Source of the DNA: Gammaproteobacteria bacterium
GTDB lineage: Bacteria; Pseudomonadota; Gammaproteobacteria; SZUA-229
NCBI GenBank assembly: GCA_029882395.1
Contig: JAOUKT010000011.1
Coordinates: 1-64,000, forward strand
DNA length: 64,000 bases
Reading direction: 5' to 3'
In this document: positions 21,529 through 64,000 of the stretch, piece by piece
Layout: each line of letters begins with the position of its first letter
How positions within the stretch are numbered: the stretch's first letter is position 1
The notes under the pieces: generated by a model
The model's database searches: none
Seen by the model: the letters and a program-made list of their open reading frames with translations, nothing else
What the model was told of the DNA's origin: nothing
Program-made: the position numbers and the translations under genes

Positions 21529-21975
21529 ATGACCGCAGGTGAATATTGCAATAGAGAAGTGATTGTTACCGAGCAGGATGCTTCTGTTACTGAAGCCGCC
21601 GAGTTAATGCGCCGTCATCATGTGGGGGATCTTGTTGTTGTCAAAAAAGTGGGGGAATACAGTCTTCCTCTTGGCATTATAACTGACCGCGATATCGTCA
21701 TAGAGGTGGTCGCTCAGGGTGTTGACCCGGCCTTATTAGCTATCAAAGATATCATGAGTACCAGGCTGGTAACGGTTGATGAAAAAGTGACGCTGTTAGA
21801 TGCACTGGAGCAGATGCAAAGCCGGGGTGTTCGCCGGCTCATTGTGCTTGAACAGGGCCATTTGCAGGGCTTGCTGAGCGCCGATGATGCGATAGAGCTA
21901 ATTGCCGAAGCCATGAACAAATTAACCAGGCTTGTGAAGCGAGAAATTAATCATGAAGTCAATGAGTACCCGTAA
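21529..21975 (+). CDS. Two-CBS-domain protein
   Basis: 148 residues; AGGAG 8 bases before the ATG. Two CBS domains: residues about 5-65 (ASVTEAAELMRRHHVGDLVV, PLGIITDRDI) and about 75-135 (TLLDALEQMQSRGVRRLIV, LQGLLSADDAIELI). The pair forms a Bateman module that binds adenosine nucleotides or SAM. No effector domain, so it acts through a partner. Close paralogue of 50941-51405 (both begin with TGEYC, and share LMR-HHVGD and GI-TDRDIVI). Probably induced by low oxygen through the upstream FNR box. Confidence 0.9.
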   Translation: MTAGEYCNREVIVTEQDASVTEAAELMRRHHVGDLVVVKKVGEYSLPLGIITDRDIVIEVVAQGVDPALLAIKDIMSTRLVTVDEKVTLLDALEQMQSRGVRRLIVLEQGHLQGLLSADDAIELIAEAMNKLTRLVKREINHEVNEYP

Positions 21976-53810: not shown

Positions 53811-53939
53811 AAAGTATCAATGACCGGCTTTTTTTCAGGCTATTTTATTTTTATCTAAGTGTTTTCCACTACATAGTTACCCTTAGTTTATGTAAATTTG
53901 TTTAGACGCATATACGGCTTTTTGATAGTATTCTGCGTC

Positions 53940-54224
53940 ATGAAATTATGTCGTCACTTTTTCTTTTATCTGCTTGCGCTGACGCTGTTCGGCCAGCTGG
54001 CTGCTGCATCAGCTGTCGATAGTGACATGCTGCTTGCTGACGATCTTTATGATGCAAGGCTTCTGATTGAAGACTTTAGTGACGATACGGATGAGCTGGG
54101 TGCTGACATCAGTGTCCAGTTTGATCGACAGCCAGATGACTTTGCTTTAGCTACAAACAAGTACGATTTCCTGCTGCAGATTGCCCTGCTCGCGGATGCC
54201 CGCGCCCCGCCACTGGTTCTATAA
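53940..54224 (+). CDS. Small acidic secreted protein
   Basis: 94 residues from ATG 53940. Signal peptide about 1-24 (FFFYLLALTLFGQLAAASA), mature part rich in Asp (DSDMLLADDLYDARLLIEDF, DDTDELGAD). No cysteines in the mature part. No family recognised. Precedes the carbonic anhydrase gene by 157 bases in the same direction. Confidence 0.55.
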   Translation: MKLCRHFFFYLLALTLFGQLAAASAVDSDMLLADDLYDARLLIEDFSDDTDELGADISVQFDRQPDDFALATNKYDFLLQIALLADARAPPLVL

Positions 54225-54381: not shown

Positions 54382-55239
54382 ATGAAAAAAAATCAAGTTC
54401 TGTTACTGCTAACAGCCGTGCTCATGCCTGTTGCCGTTGTGGCGAAGAGTAGTTCACATACTTCTGTCGCAGACAGTGTTATCAGCAGTCAGCGAGAAAG
54501 CCTTGAAAACAATACCAAGGATAAAGGCTTTGGACCGCAATCGCCTCGCGATATTGATTCTGCTGCGGGTAAAAACAAACGTCTGTTTAGTCAGGCACCT
54601 GCTTATAATAAAATGAATCTGTGTAATATTCATTTTCACAAGAACGCTGAACACAAGGGCGGTGAGTTTTCGCAATACGCAGGCAATGGTGACGGCCATG
54701 GTTTCCAGAGTGGCTACCGGTTCTCTGGCACGTTAAATAAAAAGGATCTGATGCCTGTTGGTGCGGATGTTTGCCCAGCTAAGCATGGTGGCCTTTTCTC
54801 CGGTGATACCATTGAAGTTCACTACGTGCATTCGACTGCAAAAATTAAACCGGGCCCCACGCTGGGCGCCTGCCTGAGTGATTCGATCAAGAATCCACAA
54901 TTGCGTGTTGAAACCCAGGTCTATGTACTGGTGAATGATAAACAGGCACTCGATTTTGGCAAGTTAACAACACATGGCAAGCAAAACGGTTATTATCAGG
55001 CGCTGAATATTCCCTCGAATACGGGTACGCCTGTTGAATACAGCGGCTCAACAACTGGCCCGGCTTATAATGAAAAGGCATCGCCTTTCCAGGTTAGCTG
55101 GAGCGTGCGCCCGAAGGTTGCTAAAGTTAATATTCATTCGGTTAAGCAGTGGTGCAAAGGCAATGTCTTTAATGAAGATCATGCGCACGGAGTAAGAAAC
55201 CTGGTTAAGAACCCGGATCTTTTATCTGAAATAAAATAA
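54382..55239 (+). CDS. Delta-class (CA-like) periplasmic carbonic anhydrase
   Basis: 285 residues; AAAGGA about 8 bases before the ATG. Signal peptide about 1-21. Resembles the delta carbonic anhydrase family: FGPQSPRDI, MNLCNIHFHKNAEHKGGEF (HxH zinc site and following His), VCPAKHGGLFSGDTIEVHYV, LRVETQVYVLVND and late SPFQVSWSVRPKV. Catalyses CO2 hydration outside the inner membrane. The class was first described in diatoms and is uncommon in bacteria. Cysteines in NLCN, VCPA, GACL and QWCK may form disulfides. Confidence 0.85.
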   Translation: MKKNQVLLLLTAVLMPVAVVAKSSSHTSVADSVISSQRESLENNTKDKGFGPQSPRDIDSAAGKNKRLFSQAPAYNKMNLCNIHFHKNAEHKGGEFSQYAGNGDGHGFQSGYRFSGTLNKKDLMPVGADVCPAKHGGLFSGDTIEVHYVHSTAKIKPGPTLGACLSDSIKNPQLRVETQVYVLVNDKQALDFGKLTTHGKQNGYYQALNIPSNTGTPVEYSGSTTGPAYNEKASPFQVSWSVRPKVAKVNIHSVKQWCKGNVFNEDHAHGVRNLVKNPDLLSEIK

Positions 55240-55667
55240 CGATAAAAAATAACAGCCTAAGTTGGCAGCGCCTTTGGCGATAGTGAATATATTATCGCTG
55301 AAGGCGTGATCAACGGCCTTAAGCATAATGGCAACAGCGCTGCAGTCCTGCTGCAGGCTGACTATTGATTTAAACTTCAAATAACTAGATTTCACAAGCC
55401 AGTCAGAAATATCATGCAAGCCGTGCTTCAATTATTTTTCAGTACTTACATTCCGGCCGCTTTACTGTGAAGCTCACAGGCTCGATATGCGTTGCGGGCA
55501 GGCTGTCGTTAAAATACTGGCTTACTGTCTGCTGTAGCCGCCATAGAAAAAAGTTAATAACAACTAAAAGTATATCTAATTGGGATAACGATCACGATGA
55601 GACTAGAATAATAAATCTGGTGAAAACCACCCTTTTTTGCAGCATATAATAAACAGGAGATATGGAC
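55240..55667. other. Intergenic region with a large hairpin
   Basis: CGCCTT-TG-GCGATA (55269-55282) pairs with TATCGC-TG-AAGGCG (55293-55306): 12 pairs and one two-base internal loop. Could terminate the carbonic anhydrase transcript, but no U-run follows. No gene seen. Confidence 0.45.
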
Positions 55668-56117
55668 ATGAATGTCAATGAAATCATGGTTACGGATGCA
55701 AAATCTTGTTCCAGTGATACAACCCTCGATCAAGTTGCGATGCTCATGTGGGAGGGCAACTGTGGTTCTATACCGGTGGTTGATAGCGAAAATAAACCGA
55801 TTGGCATCATCACCGACAGGGATATTGCCATGTGTTGCGCCATTAACCACAAAGCGCCGTGGGAGTTGTCGGCATCGACTATTATGGCTGACCGCGCTTT
55901 GTTCACTTGCTCAACGGACGAAAGCCTTGAAACCGCTTTGGCAACAATGAAAAGGCAGAAGGTACGCCGCTTGCCTGTGACCGATAGTTACGGTTATTTT
56001 ACTGGCATGTTGTCGATTGATGACGTGGTTGCCTGTTCTGCTAAAGGCAAGACTGCGAAAAACATGTCATATGATACGACCATGAATACACTTAAGGCGG
56101 TTGCCATTCATCATTAG
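55668..56117 (+). CDS. Two-CBS-domain protein
   Basis: 149 residues from ATG 55668; AGGAG is 8 bases upstream, whereas the first ATG (55662) is almost on top of it. Two CBS domains: about 5-65 (MVTDAKSCSSDTTLDQVAM, PVVDSENKPIGIITDRDIAM) and about 75-135 (SLETALATMKRQKVRRLPV, GYFTGMLSIDDVVACS). Third CBS protein of the window and more distant from the other two. Followed by a terminator. Confidence 0.9.
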   Translation: MNVNEIMVTDAKSCSSDTTLDQVAMLMWEGNCGSIPVVDSENKPIGIITDRDIAMCCAINHKAPWELSASTIMADRALFTCSTDESLETALATMKRQKVRRLPVTDSYGYFTGMLSIDDVVACSAKGKTAKNMSYDTTMNTLKAVAIHH

Positions 56118-56181: not shown

Positions 56182-56482
56182 TTGAGTTTCATCGCATCCA
56201 GGCAAAGAACAAGGCCAGCCGCTGGACGATAAACTGCTTTGCCTCAGGCTACAAAAGCGAACGGTTTTCTTGCATAACCGTCGCTCATGCCTTTTATCCA
56301 TGACCGATAAGTCATGCGTGTCATGCACTGGCTTTTTAAACTCCCTCAATCAACGCCTATTGTTATGACTGCGACGGATTGTCGCGCGTCAATCTGTCAC
56401 TTCTTTCCTTCTGAGTATTACCCTAGAATTTATCCAGACTTTTCTTATTGTCATTTGAAATATATTTTATGGGGAGCTTGCG

Positions 56483-58798
56483 TTGCGAAAAAAAAATACG
56501 GACAGGCAAAACAGGTTAACCGTGACGCTGTCATGGGCACTTTTTTCATCGATGACGGTTTCTGTCGCGGCCGAAACAGAAACCGGTGCTGATATTTCTG
56601 CCGTCCCGCCGCCAATGCAAGAGCTGGTTGTCTGGGGCGAGCAAAAAGAAAGTGCACAGGCCGGTTATACCAGCCCGGTAAGTACTTTAAAGCAGGAGGA
56701 TTTAAAGAGCATCAATATGGCGACGACGGAAGACGCGGTAAAATATGAACCCAGTATTGTCATTCGCCGGCGTTTTATTGGTGATTCGAACGGCACCCTG
56801 GGCTTGCGTGGCTCCAATATGTTTCAGACTTCACGCTCGATGGTTTTTGCCGACGGCGTACCATTGCATTATTTACTGCAGTCACGCTGGAATGGTGCAC
56901 CGCGCTGGACCATGGTTTCATCCAGTGAAATCGCGCAGGTGGATGTAGTCTACGGCCCGTTCTCTGCAGAATATGGCGGTAATGCCATGGGTGGCGTGGT
57001 GTTGATTGAAACCAAAATTCCGCAGCAGCAGCAGTTTCATTTCGATGGCATGTTGTTCTCACAAAGTTTTCAAGACTATGGTTTTGATGACAGCGTCAAT
57101 GGCTATAAAGGTTTTATGTCTTATGGCAATAAGATAGGCGAGCTGAGCCTGTATATGTCGTTTAACCACCTTGATAATGAATCGCAACCACAGATCTTCA
57201 GAGACAGCGCGATTGACCCTGTCGGCACATCCACAACATCGGTTACGGGCGGCATTGCGGGCAATAATTCAACCGGTAATGCAAGAATATTTTATGGCGA
57301 CACGGGTGTGGTCGATACCATCACCGATAACTACAAAATAAAATTAGGTTACGATTTTAATAACTGGTCAGCATTGCTGAATCTGGCTTATGAAGACCGT
57401 AACGCCAGCAATATCGGCAACTCCTATGTACAGGACAGTCTGGGCAATACGGTATGGAGTGGCGCCGTCGACCAGGCTGGCACTGTTTATACCATCAATG
57501 GCAGCCGGATCGGTGCGACGGAAAGTGAACGCAACAGTTTGAATGTTGGGCTGCGCCTTAAAGCTGAGCTTGCAGACACCATCCAGATGGAAATCAACCT
57601 GAGTGCCTTTGATGTCTCAAAGGATGAAACACGCTCGTCGTTACTCAATCCAAACGATACGTTATCGACCGGTGCTGGAAAAATCACGGACTTTGGTGAT
57701 ACAGGCTGGCAAACCGCAGAAGCCAAATGGATGTTCGATGATCTCGGTATTGATGGCCTGAGCATGATCGCTGGCCTGCGACAGGAGAGCTATAAACTCA
57801 ATATTAATGTCTACGATTCGGCTAACTATGCAGCAGGCACTAAGGATACATTAAGAGATAGCAGTGGTGGCGAAACGAGTCTTGCTGCGGTCTTTAGTCA
57901 GTTTAACTGGGAACTGAATGAGCTTTGGGATACCTCGTTTGGCCTGCGTTATGAGTCGTGGAACAGCGATAACGGCTACTACGATCAGGACGGCAGTGCG
58001 GTAACCGATTTGGTATACACGCCATCGCGTTCGGAAGAGCAGGTATCACCCAAATTCTCGCTGGGTCATAAACCGGCAGAAGACTGGATCGTGCGTTACT
58101 CTCTGGCAAAGGCTTATCGCTTCCCAATTGTTGAAGAACTGTATAGTCAGTACGAAGCCTACGCCTCACAGAGCCTGGCCAACCCTGATCTTAAATCGGA
58201 AAATGGTTTACACCACAACATAATGGTTGAGCATGGTCTTAAAGATGGTTATCTGCGCGTTAATCTGTATAGCGAAAACATCGAAGATGTGATCGAGTCA
58301 CAGACCGACACCAGTGGCCCTGTTGATGTCAGAACCTTTGTGCCGGTAGATGAAGTAAAAACCACCGGTCTTGAGTTTATTGCCAATCTCAGAAAAGTGA
58401 TGACTGATGAGCTGGATATTCGTTTTAATCTGGCCTACACCGATTCAAAAATTGTCCGCAATGCCGCCGACCCCGCTATTGTCGGTAACCGTTTTCCACG
58501 CATGCCAGAATGGCGCGGTAACCTGCTGGCGACCTGGCATATTTCAACGGTTTGGGATCTGAGTGGTAGCCTGCAATATGCCAGTAACAGTTATGCACGA
58601 CTCGATAATACAGACGAAGAAGATAATGTCTACGGCGCGCAGGACAGTTACACACGTCTGGGCATGAAAACCACCTATCGCTTAAATACTAAATCCAGTT
58701 TTTCTTTTGGCATCGATAACCTCAGCGATGAGGTGGCTTACGTCGCACATCCCTGGCCAGGCCGTACCATTTATGCGACCGCTTCTTTTGATATCTAA
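56483..58798 (+). CDS. TonB-dependent outer membrane receptor
   Basis: 771 residues from a TTG with GGGGAG about 6 bases upstream. Signal peptide about 1-30. TonB box candidate in MQELVVWGEQ. Plug domain about 45-165 (GTLGLRGSNMFQTSRSMVFAD, VDVVYGPFSAEYGGNAMGG). The 22-strand barrel follows and ends FDI after GRTIYATASF. SPKFSLGHKPAEDWIVRYS and KAYRFPIVEELY are typical barrel motifs. Substrate not deducible. First gene of an operon with its own TonB-ExbB-ExbD, a beta-propeller and a thioredoxin, which suggests metal or metal-chelate uptake (inference). Confidence 0.93.
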   Translation: MRKKNTDRQNRLTVTLSWALFSSMTVSVAAETETGADISAVPPPMQELVVWGEQKESAQAGYTSPVSTLKQEDLKSINMATTEDAVKYEPSIVIRRRFIGDSNGTLGLRGSNMFQTSRSMVFADGVPLHYLLQSRWNGAPRWTMVSSSEIAQVDVVYGPFSAEYGGNAMGGVVLIETKIPQQQQFHFDGMLFSQSFQDYGFDDSVNGYKGFMSYGNKIGELSLYMSFNHLDNESQPQIFRDSAIDPVGTSTTSVTGGIAGNNSTGNARIFYGDTGVVDTITDNYKIKLGYDFNNWSALLNLAYEDRNASNIGNSYVQDSLGNTVWSGAVDQAGTVYTINGSRIGATESERNSLNVGLRLKAELADTIQMEINLSAFDVSKDETRSSLLNPNDTLSTGAGKITDFGDTGWQTAEAKWMFDDLGIDGLSMIAGLRQESYKLNINVYDSANYAAGTKDTLRDSSGGETSLAAVFSQFNWELNELWDTSFGLRYESWNSDNGYYDQDGSAVTDLVYTPSRSEEQVSPKFSLGHKPAEDWIVRYSLAKAYRFPIVEELYSQYEAYASQSLANPDLKSENGLHHNIMVEHGLKDGYLRVNLYSENIEDVIESQTDTSGPVDVRTFVPVDEVKTTGLEFIANLRKVMTDELDIRFNLAYTDSKIVRNAADPAIVGNRFPRMPEWRGNLLATWHISTVWDLSGSLQYASNSYARLDNTDEEDNVYGAQDSYTRLGMKTTYRLNTKSSFSFGIDNLSDEVAYVAHPWPGRTIYATASFDI

Positions 58799-58863
58799 AT
58801 CAACGTGAGCGCAAAAATAAAAGCTGCGCGTCTGCTATCAGCCAGCTGCAGCGTGCGCTGCTG

Positions 58864-59469
58864 ATGAAACCCTCGGCAGGAATGGTTTTGGGGTTAGTGA
58901 TCTGTTTTCATGCAGGCCTGTTGTTTTTGGTTTTGCCTTCAAAGCCGGTGCAGCCGGATATAATAACAAGTCCTGCGATTGCCGGTGTGCTGGTTCAAAT
59001 GCCATCGGCTGAAGAGCCGAAAGCGGCGCAGAAAAAACTAGCGCCGGTGCCGGAACCCAAACCTGTAGTGGCGGCAAAAAAAGTAAAAATACCAGCACCG
59101 CCTGAAAAGCCTGCTGTGTCTGAGGCTGAGGAAATGGCCGTTGCAGTTGAGCACAGTGCCGATGCCCGGCAGCAGATCTCACCGATTGTGGCACCCCGGG
59201 TGGATGCGACACGGCGCAGCAACCCGGCACCGGTGTATCCGCGCAGTGCGTTGCGCCGCCAGCAGCAAGGAAAGGTTATCCTGGAAGTGCTGATTCAGAC
59301 TGACGGCGCAGTGGCCGAGGTGCGCCTGAAACAAAGCAGTGGTTTTAAGCGGCTGGATCGCTCTGCAATCAAAGCCGTTAAACGCTGGCGTTATATAGCC
59401 GCGCAACAGTCCGGCAAAGCGATTGAATACTGGTATCAACAAGCCATTGTTTTCTCATTACGGCAATGA
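58864..59469 (+). CDS. tonB: TonB energy transducer
   Basis: 201 residues. N-terminal membrane anchor (about 7-26), a Pro/Lys-rich spacer (about 45-85: PEPKPVVAAKKVKIPAPPEK) and the C-terminal TonB fold about 120-201 (YPRSALRRQQQGKVILEVLI, GFKRLDRSAIKAVKRWRY). Couples proton-motive force from ExbB-ExbD to the receptor. Spaced 65 bases after the receptor gene. Confidence 0.92.
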   Translation: MKPSAGMVLGLVICFHAGLLFLVLPSKPVQPDIITSPAIAGVLVQMPSAEEPKAAQKKLAPVPEPKPVVAAKKVKIPAPPEKPAVSEAEEMAVAVEHSADARQQISPIVAPRVDATRRSNPAPVYPRSALRRQQQGKVILEVLIQTDGAVAEVRLKQSSGFKRLDRSAIKAVKRWRYIAAQQSGKAIEYWYQQAIVFSLRQ

Positions 59470-59501
59470 CTATCGAGTCACTGAATCTAAGGAATACAAC
59501 T

Positions 59502-60239
59502 ATGCAAGATAACCCCTATGGTATTGAGGCCCTGTGGCTACAGGGTGATCTGGTAATAAAAACTGTCGCCATGATATTACTGCTGATGTCGATAGTGTCA
59601 TGGACAATTATTTTGCTGCGGGCGTGGCGTTTGTGGCATTTACGACAGTGCCGGCAAAAGCTGGCAGCGTTCTGGCAGACAGAGGATTTTACACAAGCCC
59701 AGCAACAGCTTTATGCCAATGATGCGGCGAATCCGTTTCGCCGGCTGGCAGCAGAAGGCAAGTCAGCGATCGCACATCATCAGCAGCATCAGCACAGCTT
59801 AGAAGACAGCTTTCCGCTGGCGGAGTGGCTGCATTCAAGCCTGCGCGAAGCAATTGATGTCGGCACTGACAATCTGCAACGCGGTTTATCAGTGCTGGCA
59901 TCGGTTGGTGCAACGGCTCCCTTCGTTGGTCTGTTTGGAACCGTATGGGGCATCTATCATGCGCTGGTGAATATTGGTGTTTCCGGTCAGGCCAGTATCG
60001 ATAAAGTGGCCGGTCCGGTCGGTGAGGCACTGATCATGACAGCACTGGGACTGGCGGTGGCGATTCCCGCCGTGCTCGGTTATAACGCACTGGTGCGTGG
60101 CAATAAACGCATCATCAGAAAATTAACGGGTTTTGCCCAGCAATTGCACGTTTATTTGCTCACCGGTGCGCCGCCTGTGCAGGCGTGCGACAGTCTTCAT
60201 GCGAGAAATGAAAACAAGAGGGCCGGTCATGGGCTTTAA
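59502..60239 (+). CDS. exbB: ExbB/TolQ proton channel component
   Basis: 245 residues from ATG 59502 with AAGGA 9 bases upstream; the frame runs to an ATG at 59466 that overlaps tonB. Three membrane segments: about 19-38, 135-158 (LSVLASVGATAPFVGLFGTVWG, MotA/ExbB signature in parts) and 182-205 (EALIMTALGLAVAIPAVLGYN). Works with ExbD as the motor of TonB. Overlaps exbD by 11 bases. Confidence 0.93.
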   Translation: MQDNPYGIEALWLQGDLVIKTVAMILLLMSIVSWTIILLRAWRLWHLRQCRQKLAAFWQTEDFTQAQQQLYANDAANPFRRLAAEGKSAIAHHQQHQHSLEDSFPLAEWLHSSLREAIDVGTDNLQRGLSVLASVGATAPFVGLFGTVWGIYHALVNIGVSGQASIDKVAGPVGEALIMTALGLAVAIPAVLGYNALVRGNKRIIRKLTGFAQQLHVYLLTGAPPVQACDSLHARNENKRAGHGL

Positions 60240-60654
60240 TAACGAGCTGGACAATAACGATGAGGTAATGAGTGAAATTAACATGACGCCGCTGGTCGAT
60301 GTGATGCTGGTGTTGTTAATTATTTTTATCATCGCCATGCCGTTATTAAATCAGGCAATCAAGATTGATTTACCCAAAGCAGACAATCAAACCACAAGCA
60401 TTAGCCCCGAGACCATAACCTTAAGCGTCAATGAAAGTGGCAAACTATACTGGAATAAACAAGCCATTTCGCAGGCCGTATTGCAACAAAAACTGCAGGC
60501 TGTGGCACAGCAACAGCCGCAGCCAGAAATCCATTTGCGCGGTGACCGCCATGTTGAATACGCATACATAGTCAGGGTGATGACAGCTGTTCGTCATGCC
60601 GGCATTGAGAAGCTGGGCTTTATCACTGAGCCCATGGCCAACAATAAAAAATGA
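60229..60654 (+). CDS. exbD: ExbD/TolR component
   Basis: 141 residues from ATG 60229 with AGAGGG upstream (the frame is open further up inside exbB). SEINMTPLVDVMLVLLIIF: the Asp in PLVDVMLVLL is the conserved proton-carrying residue; one membrane helix about 22-42. Periplasmic domain about 55-141 (LRGDRHVEYAYIVRVM). Overlaps the next gene by four bases. Confidence 0.93.
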   Translation: MGFNNELDNNDEVMSEINMTPLVDVMLVLLIIFIIAMPLLNQAIKIDLPKADNQTTSISPETITLSVNESGKLYWNKQAISQAVLQQKLQAVAQQQPQPEIHLRGDRHVEYAYIVRVMTAVRHAGIEKLGFITEPMANNKK

Positions 60655-61925
60655 AAAAGCAGATCATTATGGGAAAACAAAAAACATTATCGCAGCGACT
60701 CGGTGTCATCATTGCCAGCCTCGTGCTCATCACCCCGCTGCTAACACACAGTGCCGAGCATAAGCCGCGCAAACAGCCGCCAGCAAGCCCGGCGCTGTGC
60801 AGCAATGCCGATAGTCTGGCGTCATTAAAATGCAGCCGCGGAGCAAGTTCAGTCTTTGATAATAATGGCCGATTATGGCTGGCCTGGGCATTTGGCGGCC
60901 ATGTCTATGTTAATTTTTCCGATAACAAAGGTAAAAGCTATAGCTCGCCCAGCGTGGTAAATAAAATACCCGAGGCCATCGCCGCCAAGGCAGAAAGCCC
61001 GGTCAGGATTGTTGTCGATAACAAAGGCCGGCTGTTTGTCACCTGGACCCTGAAGTTAGCCAAACGCTTCAGTGGTCACATTCGTTTTAGCCGCTCGACA
61101 GATGGCGGTAAACACTTTTCTGCTCCGTTAACCGTTAATGATCACCTTGAGCTAACCAGTCACCGTTTCCAGTCCATGGCTGTTAACGATCGCGGTGATA
61201 TTTTCATTGCCTGGCTGGATAAACGTGATCTGCTGGCCGCTAAAAAGGCAGGCAAACCCTATACTGGAGCGGCGGTTTATTACACTTACTCTGATAATCA
61301 GGGGCTATCATTTCATCCCAATATCAAAATCAGCGATAGCAGTTGCGAGTGTTGTCGCACTGCGATGACGATGGATAAAGATGGTCTGCCCGTTATTTTA
61401 TGGCGACATATCTTTGGCAAAAACAGCCGCGACCACGCACTGGTAAAACTGATGAATAAAGATCGCGTCGGCAATGTCAGGCGTGCGAGTTTTGATAACT
61501 GGCAGGTGGATGGTTGCCCGCATCATGGGCCGGCTATTTCAAGCAGTGATGAAGGCATCTATCACTTAACATGGTTTAATAATGCGCCTGAACGTCATGG
61601 CCTGTTTTATGCCAGCAGCAAGGATCAGGGCAAAACAGTGTCAAGCCCGCTCAGTTATGGTAACTACCAGTCCGGGGCCAGTCACCCGCAGGTATTGAGT
61701 AGCGGAGAAAATATTTATTTATTATGGAAAGAGTTTGATGGCAAACAATCCAGCCTGATGACAATGAGCTCCAGTGATAAAGGTAATATCTGGTCAGTAC
61801 CCAAAGTACTTTTACAAAGCTCAAGTGCAAATGAGCATCCATTGTTAATCCATGATGGTCAGCAAGTCTATGCAGCCTGGCATCGTCGTGGTGAAGACTA
61901 CCGACTACTGGCGCTGAAGAAATAA
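60651..61925 (+). CDS. Periplasmic beta-propeller (sialidase-like) with CxCC and CPHH motifs
   Basis: 424 residues. Signal peptide about 1-35. Asp boxes of the BNR/sialidase repeat: SDNKGKSYSSP, STDGGKHFSAP, SDNQGLSFHP, SKDQGKTVSSP and SSDKGNIWSVP, so a six-bladed propeller. Sialidase catalytic Arg triad and Tyr are not evident, thus probably not a sialidase. Marked motifs: SCECCRT (Cys 232, 234, 235) and DGCPHHGP (Cys 289, His 291, His 292), plus two N-terminal Cys (ALCSN, LKCSRG). These could bind a metal. Translation is coupled to exbD, and the thioredoxin gene follows by 3 bases, so the propeller may be a metal-binding partner of the TonB receptor. Confidence 0.8.
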   Translation: MKKQIIMGKQKTLSQRLGVIIASLVLITPLLTHSAEHKPRKQPPASPALCSNADSLASLKCSRGASSVFDNNGRLWLAWAFGGHVYVNFSDNKGKSYSSPSVVNKIPEAIAAKAESPVRIVVDNKGRLFVTWTLKLAKRFSGHIRFSRSTDGGKHFSAPLTVNDHLELTSHRFQSMAVNDRGDIFIAWLDKRDLLAAKKAGKPYTGAAVYYTYSDNQGLSFHPNIKISDSSCECCRTAMTMDKDGLPVILWRHIFGKNSRDHALVKLMNKDRVGNVRRASFDNWQVDGCPHHGPAISSSDEGIYHLTWFNNAPERHGLFYASSKDQGKTVSSPLSYGNYQSGASHPQVLSSGENIYLLWKEFDGKQSSLMTMSSSDKGNIWSVPKVLLQSSSANEHPLLIHDGQQVYAAWHRRGEDYRLLALKK

Positions 61926-61928
61926 AGT

Positions 61929-62381
61929 ATGAAATCTTTCTTATTGTTTAATCTGTTCTGGTTACTATCTATCGATGCCGTCGCAGAACAACAGATCAAA
62001 AATTTCACCGATGGCAGCTATGAGCAGATTGCTAAACAGTATCGGAACCAGTCGTTTGTTATGGTGTTGTGGTCGCTAGACTGTCCACCCTGTTACAAAG
62101 AGCTGGAACTACTGGCCAGTGAACGAAAACGAGATGATTTTAATCTTGTGCTGATCTCAACCGATGGTGCTGATGCCCGTACTGAAGTTGCCAGCGTGTT
62201 AAAAAAATATAAATTAAATGATGTCGATAACTGGCTGTTTGAAGACGCTTTTGCACACACCCTGCGTTATGAAATCGACCCGCTCTGGTATGGCGAGCTG
62301 CCGCGCAGTTATCTGTTTAATAAAAAACACCAGCGGCAAGCCGTCTCGGGTGTGCTCAGCGCAGCCCAGCTGGTACGCTAA
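61929..62381 (+). CDS. Periplasmic TlpA-like thioredoxin
   Basis: 150 residues. Signal peptide about 1-19 (ends DAVA-EQ). Thioredoxin fold with VMVLWSLDCPPCYKELELL; active site CPPC at 52-55 (TlpA/ResA type). cis-Pro in LPRSYLF. As the last gene of the TonB operon it probably keeps cysteines of the propeller (CxCC) reduced or correctly paired for metal loading (inference). Other TlpA proteins serve cytochrome or copper-site maturation. Confidence 0.85.
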   Translation: MKSFLLFNLFWLLSIDAVAEQQIKNFTDGSYEQIAKQYRNQSFVMVLWSLDCPPCYKELELLASERKRDDFNLVLISTDGADARTEVASVLKKYKLNDVDNWLFEDAFAHTLRYEIDPLWYGELPRSYLFNKKHQRQAVSGVLSAAQLVR

Positions 62382-62569: not shown

Positions 62570-64000
62570 TCACAGTTTAAAGCCAGTGGAAAAACAAAAT
62601 AAAGAAAAGCCATAAAATAGCAGTGCCAGCATGATCACGAACATAAAACCGAAATGTACGGCCAGTAAAGTAGCCAGTACCGCACTGAGAACCGAGGCGC
62701 AGCCATTAACTGCCCAAACCCAGGGCAGCAGCTGTGAATTGATTTCTGCCAGCCGGGAAAGTCCAAGAGGAAATGGCATTCCCATGAAAAAAGCCAGCGG
62801 TGCAATCAGTAGTGCAGAGATAATTATTTTTAGCAGTGTCGGCAAACCGGTTAATAATGAGAACAGCGGGCCTAACAGCAGGCTGTAACTGCTGGCTATC
62901 ACTATAATCAGGATAAGCGAGCAGCTGATGGCGTTTTGATAGTGTGATTTAGAAATATATCGTTTTGACCACAGGCTACCGGCACCGGCAAAAATTAGAA
63001 AGGCGGCGAGCACGACTGAAATAGAAAAAACAGGGTGATGCAGAAACAGAATGAATTTCTGTATAAAAGCAATTTCGATAAATAAAAAAGCAAGCCCGAG
63101 TGCAAGAAAATAAAAAAAGGCATAGTAGTGAATGCGATAAACTGATCCCGCCTGCCTTATGCTGCGGCACAAAAACAGCGGCAATAGAATCAGCACGATA
63201 CTGGCCAGCAAGGCCTGTATCAATGTGGCAACAAGTATCAGGTATCCCCATTCGAATAACGGCATTCCGCCTTTCCCAGCCAGTGACATAATTTCAGAAA
63301 ACACTCCCCATTTAAAAAACTGGAAGAAGAATGGCCGGTCATCTGTTGCTGGCTGCAGATTAAATTTATAACGTTTAATGAAGTCATCGCTGTCATTGCC
63401 CAGCAGCGCCGTAGCACCCTGGTAAAAATACGGTTTGGCTAATACATTATATTGGTTGGTTTCGCTTTGGGATATGCCCGGGTAATAAGCAAGATCAAAC
63501 AACTGCTGATGGCTGAATTTTTTAAGTGACTGTATGGCCGATGAGCTGATAGCAGAATTACTGATCAGTAATGTTGTTGTTTGCAGCCCGCGAATTAATA
63601 TAAGCTGTTGCCCAGGACTGCGGTGACCATTATGCCTTAGCGCTTCAATCGCCGTGGCAAAAAGTTTTAAGCTGTCTCTCGGGGGTAATTTCATCCAGCG
63701 GGTAATCGAAAGATAAGCGCCGGGTTTGAGTTTATTCAGATACTGCTGTAAGGCCTCAACGGTATACAAATAACTTTCACTCAGGGCATAGAGCCCGGCA
63801 GAGGATGCGCTAAATGAATCGATCAGTGACAGCTGGATCAAATCATATTTTTTATCGTTACCGGTGACATAGCCACGCGCCTCTTTATTGATTATGTTTA
63901 CATTCTTCGCATCATATAAATTGCCGGAAAAATCCTCGTATTCATGCTGAACTAAATTGATAAGCTGCCGGTTCAGCTCGACGACGCTGATCTGCTTTAC
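62570..64000 (-). CDS. Spermidine-synthase-like protein with membrane domain (partial)
   Basis: The frame runs off the right edge; 477 codons are visible. The first visible part belongs to the aminopropyltransferase-like domain: ISVVELNRQLINLVQHEYED, YDLIQLSLIDSFSASSAG, LKPGAYLSITRWMKLPPRD. Then comes a block of about six membrane helices (from codon 265: YLILVATLIQALLASIVLI onward) ending near SLFCFSTGFKL. Such proteins normally have membrane helices on both sides, so the N-terminal ones are probably outside the window. Function unknown; some are annotated as fused spermidine synthase/transporter. Convergent with the TonB operon. Confidence 0.8.
   Translation of the reverse strand, partial: VKQISVVELNRQLINLVQHEYEDFSGNLYDAKNVNIINKEARGYVTGNDKKYDLIQLSLIDSFSASSAGLYALSESYLYTVEALQQYLNKLKPGAYLSITRWMKLPPRDSLKLFATAIEALRHNGHRSPGQQLILIRGLQTTTLLISNSAISSSAIQSLKKFSHQQLFDLAYYPGISQSETNQYNVLAKPYFYQGATALLGNDSDDFIKRYKFNLQPATDDRPFFFQFFKWGVFSEIMSLAGKGGMPLFEWGYLILVATLIQALLASIVLILLPLFLCRSIRQAGSVYRIHYYAFFYFLALGLAFLFIEIAFIQKFILFLHHPVFSISVVLAAFLIFAGAGSLWSKRYISKSHYQNAISCSLILIIVIASSYSLLLGPLFSLLTGLPTLLKIIISALLIAPLAFFMGMPFPLGLSRLAEINSQLLPWVWAVNGCASVLSAVLATLLAVHFGFMFVIMLALLFYGFSLFCFSTGFKL

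Follow-up and report, generated by a model that had tools for sequence, protein, structure and literature searches.

Why should a gene set for TonB-dependent transport include a cysteine-rich β-propeller and a thioredoxin? The question is raised by six plus-strand genes lying side by side at 56483-62381 of a 64,000-nucleotide stretch of gammaproteobacterial DNA (contig JAOUKT010000011.1, positions 1 to 64,000; hereafter the window), which encode, in order, a TonB-dependent receptor (TBDR), TonB, ExbB, ExbD, a BNR-repeat propeller and a TlpA/ResA-like thioredoxin. The spacing is that of the single operon proposed in an earlier, sequence-only reading of the window: a 65-nt gap separates the receptor and TonB genes, the TonB, ExbB, ExbD and propeller genes overlap successively by 4, 11 and 4 nt, and a 3-nt gap precedes the thioredoxin gene. 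That reading took the operon for an uptake system for a metal or metal complex with the propeller as periplasmic receiver. The proposal fits all of the findings reported here, and the metal can be narrowed, most likely, to copper, but the six-gene set on which it was built is not the conserved unit. We consider it moderately probable that the operon takes up copper by TonB-driven transport and that a propeller with four cysteines receives the metal in the periplasm.

The propeller matches BNR_2 only marginally (31.1 bits against a cut-off of 31.4), and its AlphaFold2 model (pLDDT 90.6, pTM 0.86) predicts seven blades. The two cysteine clusters noted in the sequence-only reading, CxCC (C232, C234 and C235) and CPHH (C289-H292), are both present, and C232, C234, C235, C289 and P290 are invariant in the 76-80 relatives of an alignment made up of sequences other than the plasmid-derived ones. 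When the seven homologous segments are placed in register, C232-E-C234-C235-R starts blade 4 at exactly the position at which C289-P-H291-H292-G starts blade 5. Because the two motifs thus occupy the same loop (D-A) of neighboring blades, the four cysteines probably form one composite metal site. Close to this edge are also H171 of blade 3 (96% conserved), E115 of blade 2 and H345 of blade 6, and R252, R260 and D261, close in sequence to the cysteines, are also conserved. More distant relatives keep both CxCC and CP and have the histidines exchanged (CPVN, CPMD), the exception being a single truncated protein, which stops short of the second motif.

Relatives of the propeller occur in 34 of the 369 genomes of a class-wide sample, about 20 of them close, and in each of the four genus members sampled; a species-level scan gave at least 579 confirmed relatives. 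Among the sources of the best 80 of these at least 579 are uncultured Gammaproteobacteria, Methylobacter, Methylomonas, Methylocaldum, Nitrotoga, Gallionellaceae, Sulfuricella and Thiobacillus. Among 93 close loci, some of which stop at a contig edge and some of whose contigs are counted under two locus identifiers, a receptor gene is found in the same-strand neighborhood in 81 and immediately upstream of the propeller gene in 66, and the thioredoxin is the next gene downstream in 51. The number of relatives and the frequency of the receptor beside them indicate that the six-gene locus is not a chance arrangement. The exact six-gene order recurs in L067, L068 and L086, and part of it is visible in L066 and L097, where the contigs end. 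The conserved core, however, is TBDR-propeller(-thioredoxin): the genes for TonB, ExbB and ExbD stand before it, after it or elsewhere, and the methanotroph loci, which often have two tandem receptors, lack the thioredoxin. Methylomonas sp. LW13 (L135), a methanotroph amenable to genetics, carries TBDR-propeller. Because TonB, ExbB and ExbD shift, because two receptor types accompany the propeller and because propeller-thioredoxin fusions occur, the propeller and its receptor, usually with the thioredoxin, are the unit of selection. In Methylobacter (L110, L111, L113, L115, L125, L129 and L132), the propeller gene is followed by genes for an ABC ATPase and for a pair of ABC-2-type permeases (DUF3526 is present in the one tested); these resemble a NosFY-type exporter and are possibly a methanotroph copper-maturation ABC system. 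A 4Fe-4S membrane protein and a DsbD_2 protein are encoded near the operon in L086, L101, L103, L107 and L114, often with another receptor.

The identities of the receptor, TonB, ExbB and ExbD are backed by both Pfam and NCBIfam, and the Pfam plug and barrel of the receptor, accompanied by TonB, ExbB and ExbD, are those of TonB-dependent uptake. The window receptor, designated type I, contains no cysteine; it is 81-82% identical to the receptors of L067 and L068 and about 30-45% identical to propeller-side receptors in methanotrophs and other proteobacteria. A second receptor type goes with the same propeller, at an identity of 15-19% between types I and II, and the solved structure nearest to type II is PqqU/YncD. 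A phmmer search of the PDB with the window receptor gave no match at 1e-10. The OprC/NosA model TIGR01778 was absent from all 16 NCBIfam matches of the window receptor and from the best 25 of type II, and the reference receptors of both types, having no cysteine, lack an OprC-type Cys/Met copper site.

The metal is very likely copper rather than another, a view that rests on genome context. Methanotrophs, which have a high need for copper, are prominent among the best 80 of the relatives. A Csp1-type gene for exported copper storage lies directly upstream of the receptor gene in L095 and L103 (match to PDB Csp1, E 1.5e-20), and in L067, a relative (75% identity) in which the six genes stand in the same order, a truncated Csp1-like open reading frame (ORF) follows the thioredoxin gene; Csp1 was not found in the genome of the window itself. 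In L085, nosD, two 4Fe-4S genes, nosF, nosL, nosY and a cytochrome c gene precede TBDR-propeller-thioredoxin on one strand (NosD 4e-8, NosL 1e-9). The window's own genome has genes for NosZ (1118 bits) and for two subunit I (COX1) proteins of heme-copper oxidases, and in the class-wide sample NosZ is present in 10 of 21 propeller genomes as compared with 46 of 348 others (Fisher p 3e-4). Genes of the DUF2946/CruR family (Pfam) lie upstream in two loci only, L104 and L107; in Bordetella, a leader of this family turns off the operon of a TonB-dependent transporter (TBDT) once copper is present (PMC9426467); this CruR-controlled TBDT was later shown to import chelated copper and named CrtA (PMC12914433). 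Between the two receptors of L106 lies a gene for PepSY_TM, with which CrtA copper transporters are usually paired (PMC12914433). The distant relatives, which are tied to the close group by profile comparison (hhalign 100%, 6e-46, 349 columns), have copper genes in all 12 plasmid neighborhoods inspected (copper oxidase, plastocyanin, CopC/CopD, multicopper oxidase or DUF326), although several of the 12 are Roseobacter clusters closely akin to one another, and the 12 do not count as independent events; Runella (multicopper oxidase and RND efflux) and Spirosoma (DUF326) are among them.

The thioredoxin model (pLDDT 90.4) has ResA, DsbF and CcmG among its nearest structures, with Z of ~13. The protein combines the thioredoxin fold with a signal-peptide-like N terminus, a CxxC motif in the stretch WSLDCPPC and a residue at the cis-Pro position, as in TlpA/ResA-like proteins, and C52, C55, E58 and P125 are invariant in 19 relatives. 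The suggestion in the sequence-only reading that it serves the propeller gains strength from natural propeller-thioredoxin gene fusions in L105, L118, L123 and L136. A precedent is TlpA, which, according to work cited in PMC7558416, reduces the copper-ligand thiols of ScoI and CoxB.

On this evidence the receptor would take a copper complex across the outer membrane, powered by the dedicated TonB-ExbB-ExbD, and in the periplasm the seven-bladed propeller would receive the copper at a composite site of four cysteines (plus histidine), carried on the D-A loops with which blades 4 and 5 open. The thioredoxin may hold these cysteines reduced for copper binding, as TlpA does for ScoI and CoxB, and the copper would pass on to the assembly of periplasmic cuproenzymes, the likely clients being N2O reductase (NosZ) or heme-copper oxidases. 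That transport is import rather than defense appears likely, again from genome context, and that the propeller is the receiver appears fairly likely. The strengths given to copper, to these statements and to the reading as a whole are our judgements and not computed values.

Several observations weigh against copper acquisition. The window-type receptor has no conserved cysteine, its His and Met residues are partly conserved, and its ligand cannot be read from the sequence; the window has no copper gene beside the operon, no more than about 12 of the 93 close loci have an identified copper marker, and the co-occurrence with NosZ is confounded by kinship. In addition, the neighborhoods of the distant relatives are those of copper resistance, not uptake, and would also fit a detoxifying role of the propeller. 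Copper homeostasis or defense, in which the propeller would buffer or detoxify periplasmic copper and the receptor retrieve a needed ligand or metallophore, draws on just these Roseobacter and Bacteroidota relatives within clusters of copper oxidase, RND efflux and P-type ATPase genes, and on the CusA/CzcA-type efflux genes that adjoin in L036 and L041. We nevertheless consider it unlikely, since TonB-dependent receptors import and the close group goes with a receptor, is associated with nos assembly genes and has nearby genes of the CruR family, one of which, in Bordetella, silences a TBDT operon when copper is present (PMC9426467). The fused thioredoxin and the four cysteines with R252, R260 and D261 close by in sequence would also suit a cupric reductase or complex-breaking enzyme, whose cysteines would reduce Cu(II) or split the chelate while the thioredoxin recycles the thiols; CylK and the ulvan and rhamnose-glucuronate lyases, all enzymes, are among the nearest folds. 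The absence of the thioredoxin from methanotroph loci, a point against the copper-receiver scheme as well, tells against this enzyme, and a stoichiometric receiver accounts for the same facts with fewer assumptions; we regard the enzymatic role as decidedly unlikely.

A cargo other than copper (Fe, Zn, Ni, a lanthanide or PQQ) is suggested by the likeness of the type II receptors to PqqU/YncD, by the many methylotrophs among the hosts and by possibly zinc-related genes (CobW-like, DUF2796-like and ABC, by eye only) further upstream in L104. The recurring metal markers, however, are those of copper, and Fur- and Zur-like sites upstream of 76 receptors showed no excess over shuffled controls. 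The CueR- and CopR-like sites searched for in the same regions showed no excess either. PQQ uptake itself was rejected on the weak similarity of the type II receptors to PqqU (92 bits against a model cut-off of 1200), and another cargo as a whole seems to us very improbable. A last alternative is a sialidase or a sugar-binding, SusCD-like uptake locus; relatives of the propeller carry the label "sialidase" in databases. The window propeller does have five BNR/Asp boxes, three with the canonical Asp, and Foldseek, ranked by E-value, lists sialidases first, but by structural alignment the CylK propeller and PLL lectins (Z 28-31) come ahead of them. As the sequence-only reading had it, the boxes occur without a sialidase active site: across 76 relatives the GH33 Arg triad, Tyr/Glu nucleophile and catalytic Asp are not conserved, there being one invariant Arg and no invariant Tyr or Glu, and columns 115 (Glu in 86%) and 117 (Arg in 82%, Pro in the window protein) are both variable. 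Sugar-utilization loci, named in the sequence-only reading as a refutation of metal uptake, and glycan genes were not seen in the neighborhoods examined. This explanation is already contradicted by the lack of active-site residues and of glycan genes there, and we find it barely credible.

Ahead of the receptor gene lies the palindrome GCGACGGATTGTCGC, of the form GCGAC-N5-GTCGC, abutted by an imperfect second box, GCGTCAATCTGTCAC, at a 15-bp pitch (Table 1); both are conserved in the upstream alignment of three genus members. GCGAC-N5-GTCGC occurs once in the window as compared with 0.03 expected, and TGCGACN5GTCGC once in the whole 3.29-Mb genome, at the receptor; the shorter form has a second genomic site, with a GC-rich spacer, on another contig. 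Of 20 exact copies in the scanned loci, 18 are no more than 250 bp from the start of a core gene, where 1.5 would be expected (p 1e-18), and with one mismatch allowed the box is found in 33 of 108 loci. Tandem pairs are also present in L042, L069 and L073, and these three, together with L035, L068 and L187, have RegB/RegA-like kinase-regulator pairs divergent from or adjoining the operon. The pair of the window's own genome is on contig C74, its regulator being 78% identical to that of L068, which is encoded right after the thioredoxin and the kinase. The motifs GGATNPF/GGSTNPF and RCK/RCR are found in the aligned RegB-like kinases, that of the window genome included, and are both missing from L124, a different kinase; we take GGxxNPF and a cysteine after the H-box to be RegB features. 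The kinases of the genus have, in addition, a Met/His-rich loop. By sequence the L035 pair are relatives of RegB/RegA (ActS/ActR, PrrB/PrrA) and not confirmed members, as they score below the NCBIfam equivalog cut-offs (NF033792, 238 against 350 bits; NF033791, 221 against 250 bits). The box is an undescribed palindrome, through which a RegB/RegA-like two-component system probably sets transcription of the operon.

The same box was seen at other genes. In L186 (3348-6384; genome G346, same family), GCGACAATGTGTCGC separates a divergent RegB/RegA-like pair from the gene of an exported, Met/His-rich protein of 327 residues, near cytochrome bc1-like genes, possibly a further regulon member. A putative outer-membrane protein family adjoins the operon in L042 (6669-7853; match to PF13557), L051 (425-1492) and L107 (4459-5454), with a box ahead of the gene in L042 and L051. 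CruR-type RAPP leaders were also considered and rejected, a regex search across loci finding none upstream of the receptors. Elsewhere in the window, a 108-residue plus-strand ORF (53898-54224) ends in ADARAPPLVL, the C-terminal RAPP being as in CruR-type arrest-peptide leaders; it lacks CXXC and has no Pfam match. The gene that follows after 158 nt encodes a delta-class carbonic anhydrase (54382-55239, PF10563 1e-81), for which the ORF is possibly a regulatory leader.

The arrangement of a receptor gene adjoining that of a periplasmic seven-bladed propeller is also that of Escherichia coli YncD (PqqU)/YncE, and YncE matches the propeller model at Z 25. YncE is, however, a YVTN-type propeller, and YncD/YncE are iron-regulated with PQQ as cargo. 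The present system would work like OprC/NosA, CrtA and MbnT, although the features that define OprC/NosA were absent here where they were compared. The CrtA (BfrG)/PepSY_TM operons of Bordetella and Pseudomonas likewise comprise a TBDT in a copper-regulated operon with a tie to respiratory oxidases, sometimes with their own TonB/ExbBD and a DUF2946/CruR leader (PMC12914433, PMC9426467). The partner of CrtA is a PepSY_TM membrane protein, and PMC12914433 mentions neither propeller nor thioredoxin, whereas the receptors described here are followed by TonB or the propeller, with PepSY_TM elsewhere in L106 and L051; CrtA was compared by gene order only. NosA/OprC share outer-membrane copper import for NosZ, and the L085 core directly follows nosDFLY genes, but OprC has a CxxxM-HxM copper site, and no propeller is described with OprC/NosA (PMC7558416). 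MbnT-MbnE methanobactin uptake also pairs a TBDT with a periplasmic receiver of a copper complex; MbnE, however, is an OppA-type binding protein (PMC7558416), and no methanobactin genes were noticed at the loci. TlpA with ScoI and CoxB, as cited in PMC7558416, is the parallel for a thioredoxin reducing periplasmic copper-ligand cysteines, the substrate here being, in our proposal, the propeller. The sequence-only reading did not recognize the system as described, and no description of a TBDR with a four-cysteine propeller and a thioredoxin was found in the open-access literature searched, most subscription papers lying outside that search. We regard the system as a variant of TonB-dependent copper uptake with a new combination of these three components.

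The coordinates are collected in Table 1. The receptor gene starts with TTG, preceded by GGGGAG, and the true ExbB start is probably the ATG at 59502, as relatives begin MQDNPYG. Between the carbonic anhydrase gene and the operon lies a gene for a CBS-domain protein (55662-56117), with similar CBS-type ORFs by eye at 21529 and 50941. Convergent to the operon is a large minus-strand ORF (62570-64000, 476 residues up to the window edge), without Pfam or NCBIfam match for the 423 residues searched and by eye like a membrane-bound spermidine synthase.

Table 1. Features of the operon and its upstream region in the window
Feature	Position	Strand	Evidence or remark
Palindrome GCGACGGATTGTCGC (GCGAC-N5-GTCGC), putative site of a RegA/PrrA-like response regulator	56371..56385		Ahead of receptor
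Second, imperfect box GCGTCAATCTGTCAC	56386..56400		Tandem at 15-bp pitch; abuts GCGACGGATTGTCGC
TonB-dependent receptor, 771 aa, type I	56483..58798	+	PF00593 1.4e-43; PF07715 (Plug) 7e-15
TonB, 201 aa	58864..59469	+	PF03544 (TonB_C) 2.7e-23
ExbB/TolQ family proton channel	59466..60239	+	PF01618 (MotA_ExbB) 2.6e-32
ExbD/TolR family	60229..60654	+	PF02472 4e-34
Seven-bladed BNR propeller, 424 aa, signal-peptide-like N terminus	60651..61925	+	BNR_2 2e-7; AlphaFold2 model
TlpA/ResA-like thioredoxin, signal-peptide-like N terminus	61929..62381	+	Redoxin 2e-4; model

We incline, by somewhat more than an even chance, to a wider view in which the CxCC...CP "sialidase family protein" is a widespread, unrecognized periplasmic copper family, a seven-bladed propeller with one copper site whose four cysteines come from two adjoining blades. 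It would act as receiver for TonB-dependent copper import in proteobacteria and as copper handler in the resistance clusters of Roseobacter and Bacteroidota; the import branch would, in addition, have its own thioredoxin and a two-component switch of the redox type. The passage of copper through the Gram-negative outer membrane and its periplasmic recipient are poorly known, and few TonB-dependent copper receptors have been described; the present reading, if true, would bring together within a single conserved unit a receiver, the reductase that serves it and a candidate box for regulation. The hosts include methanotrophs, nitrite oxidizers and bacteria with N2O reductase, and their greenhouse-gas metabolism depends on copper. 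If copper binding is borne out, the propeller family would count as a copper protein of a new kind, and the "sialidase" label would be corrected on the at least 579 relatives of the species-level scan.

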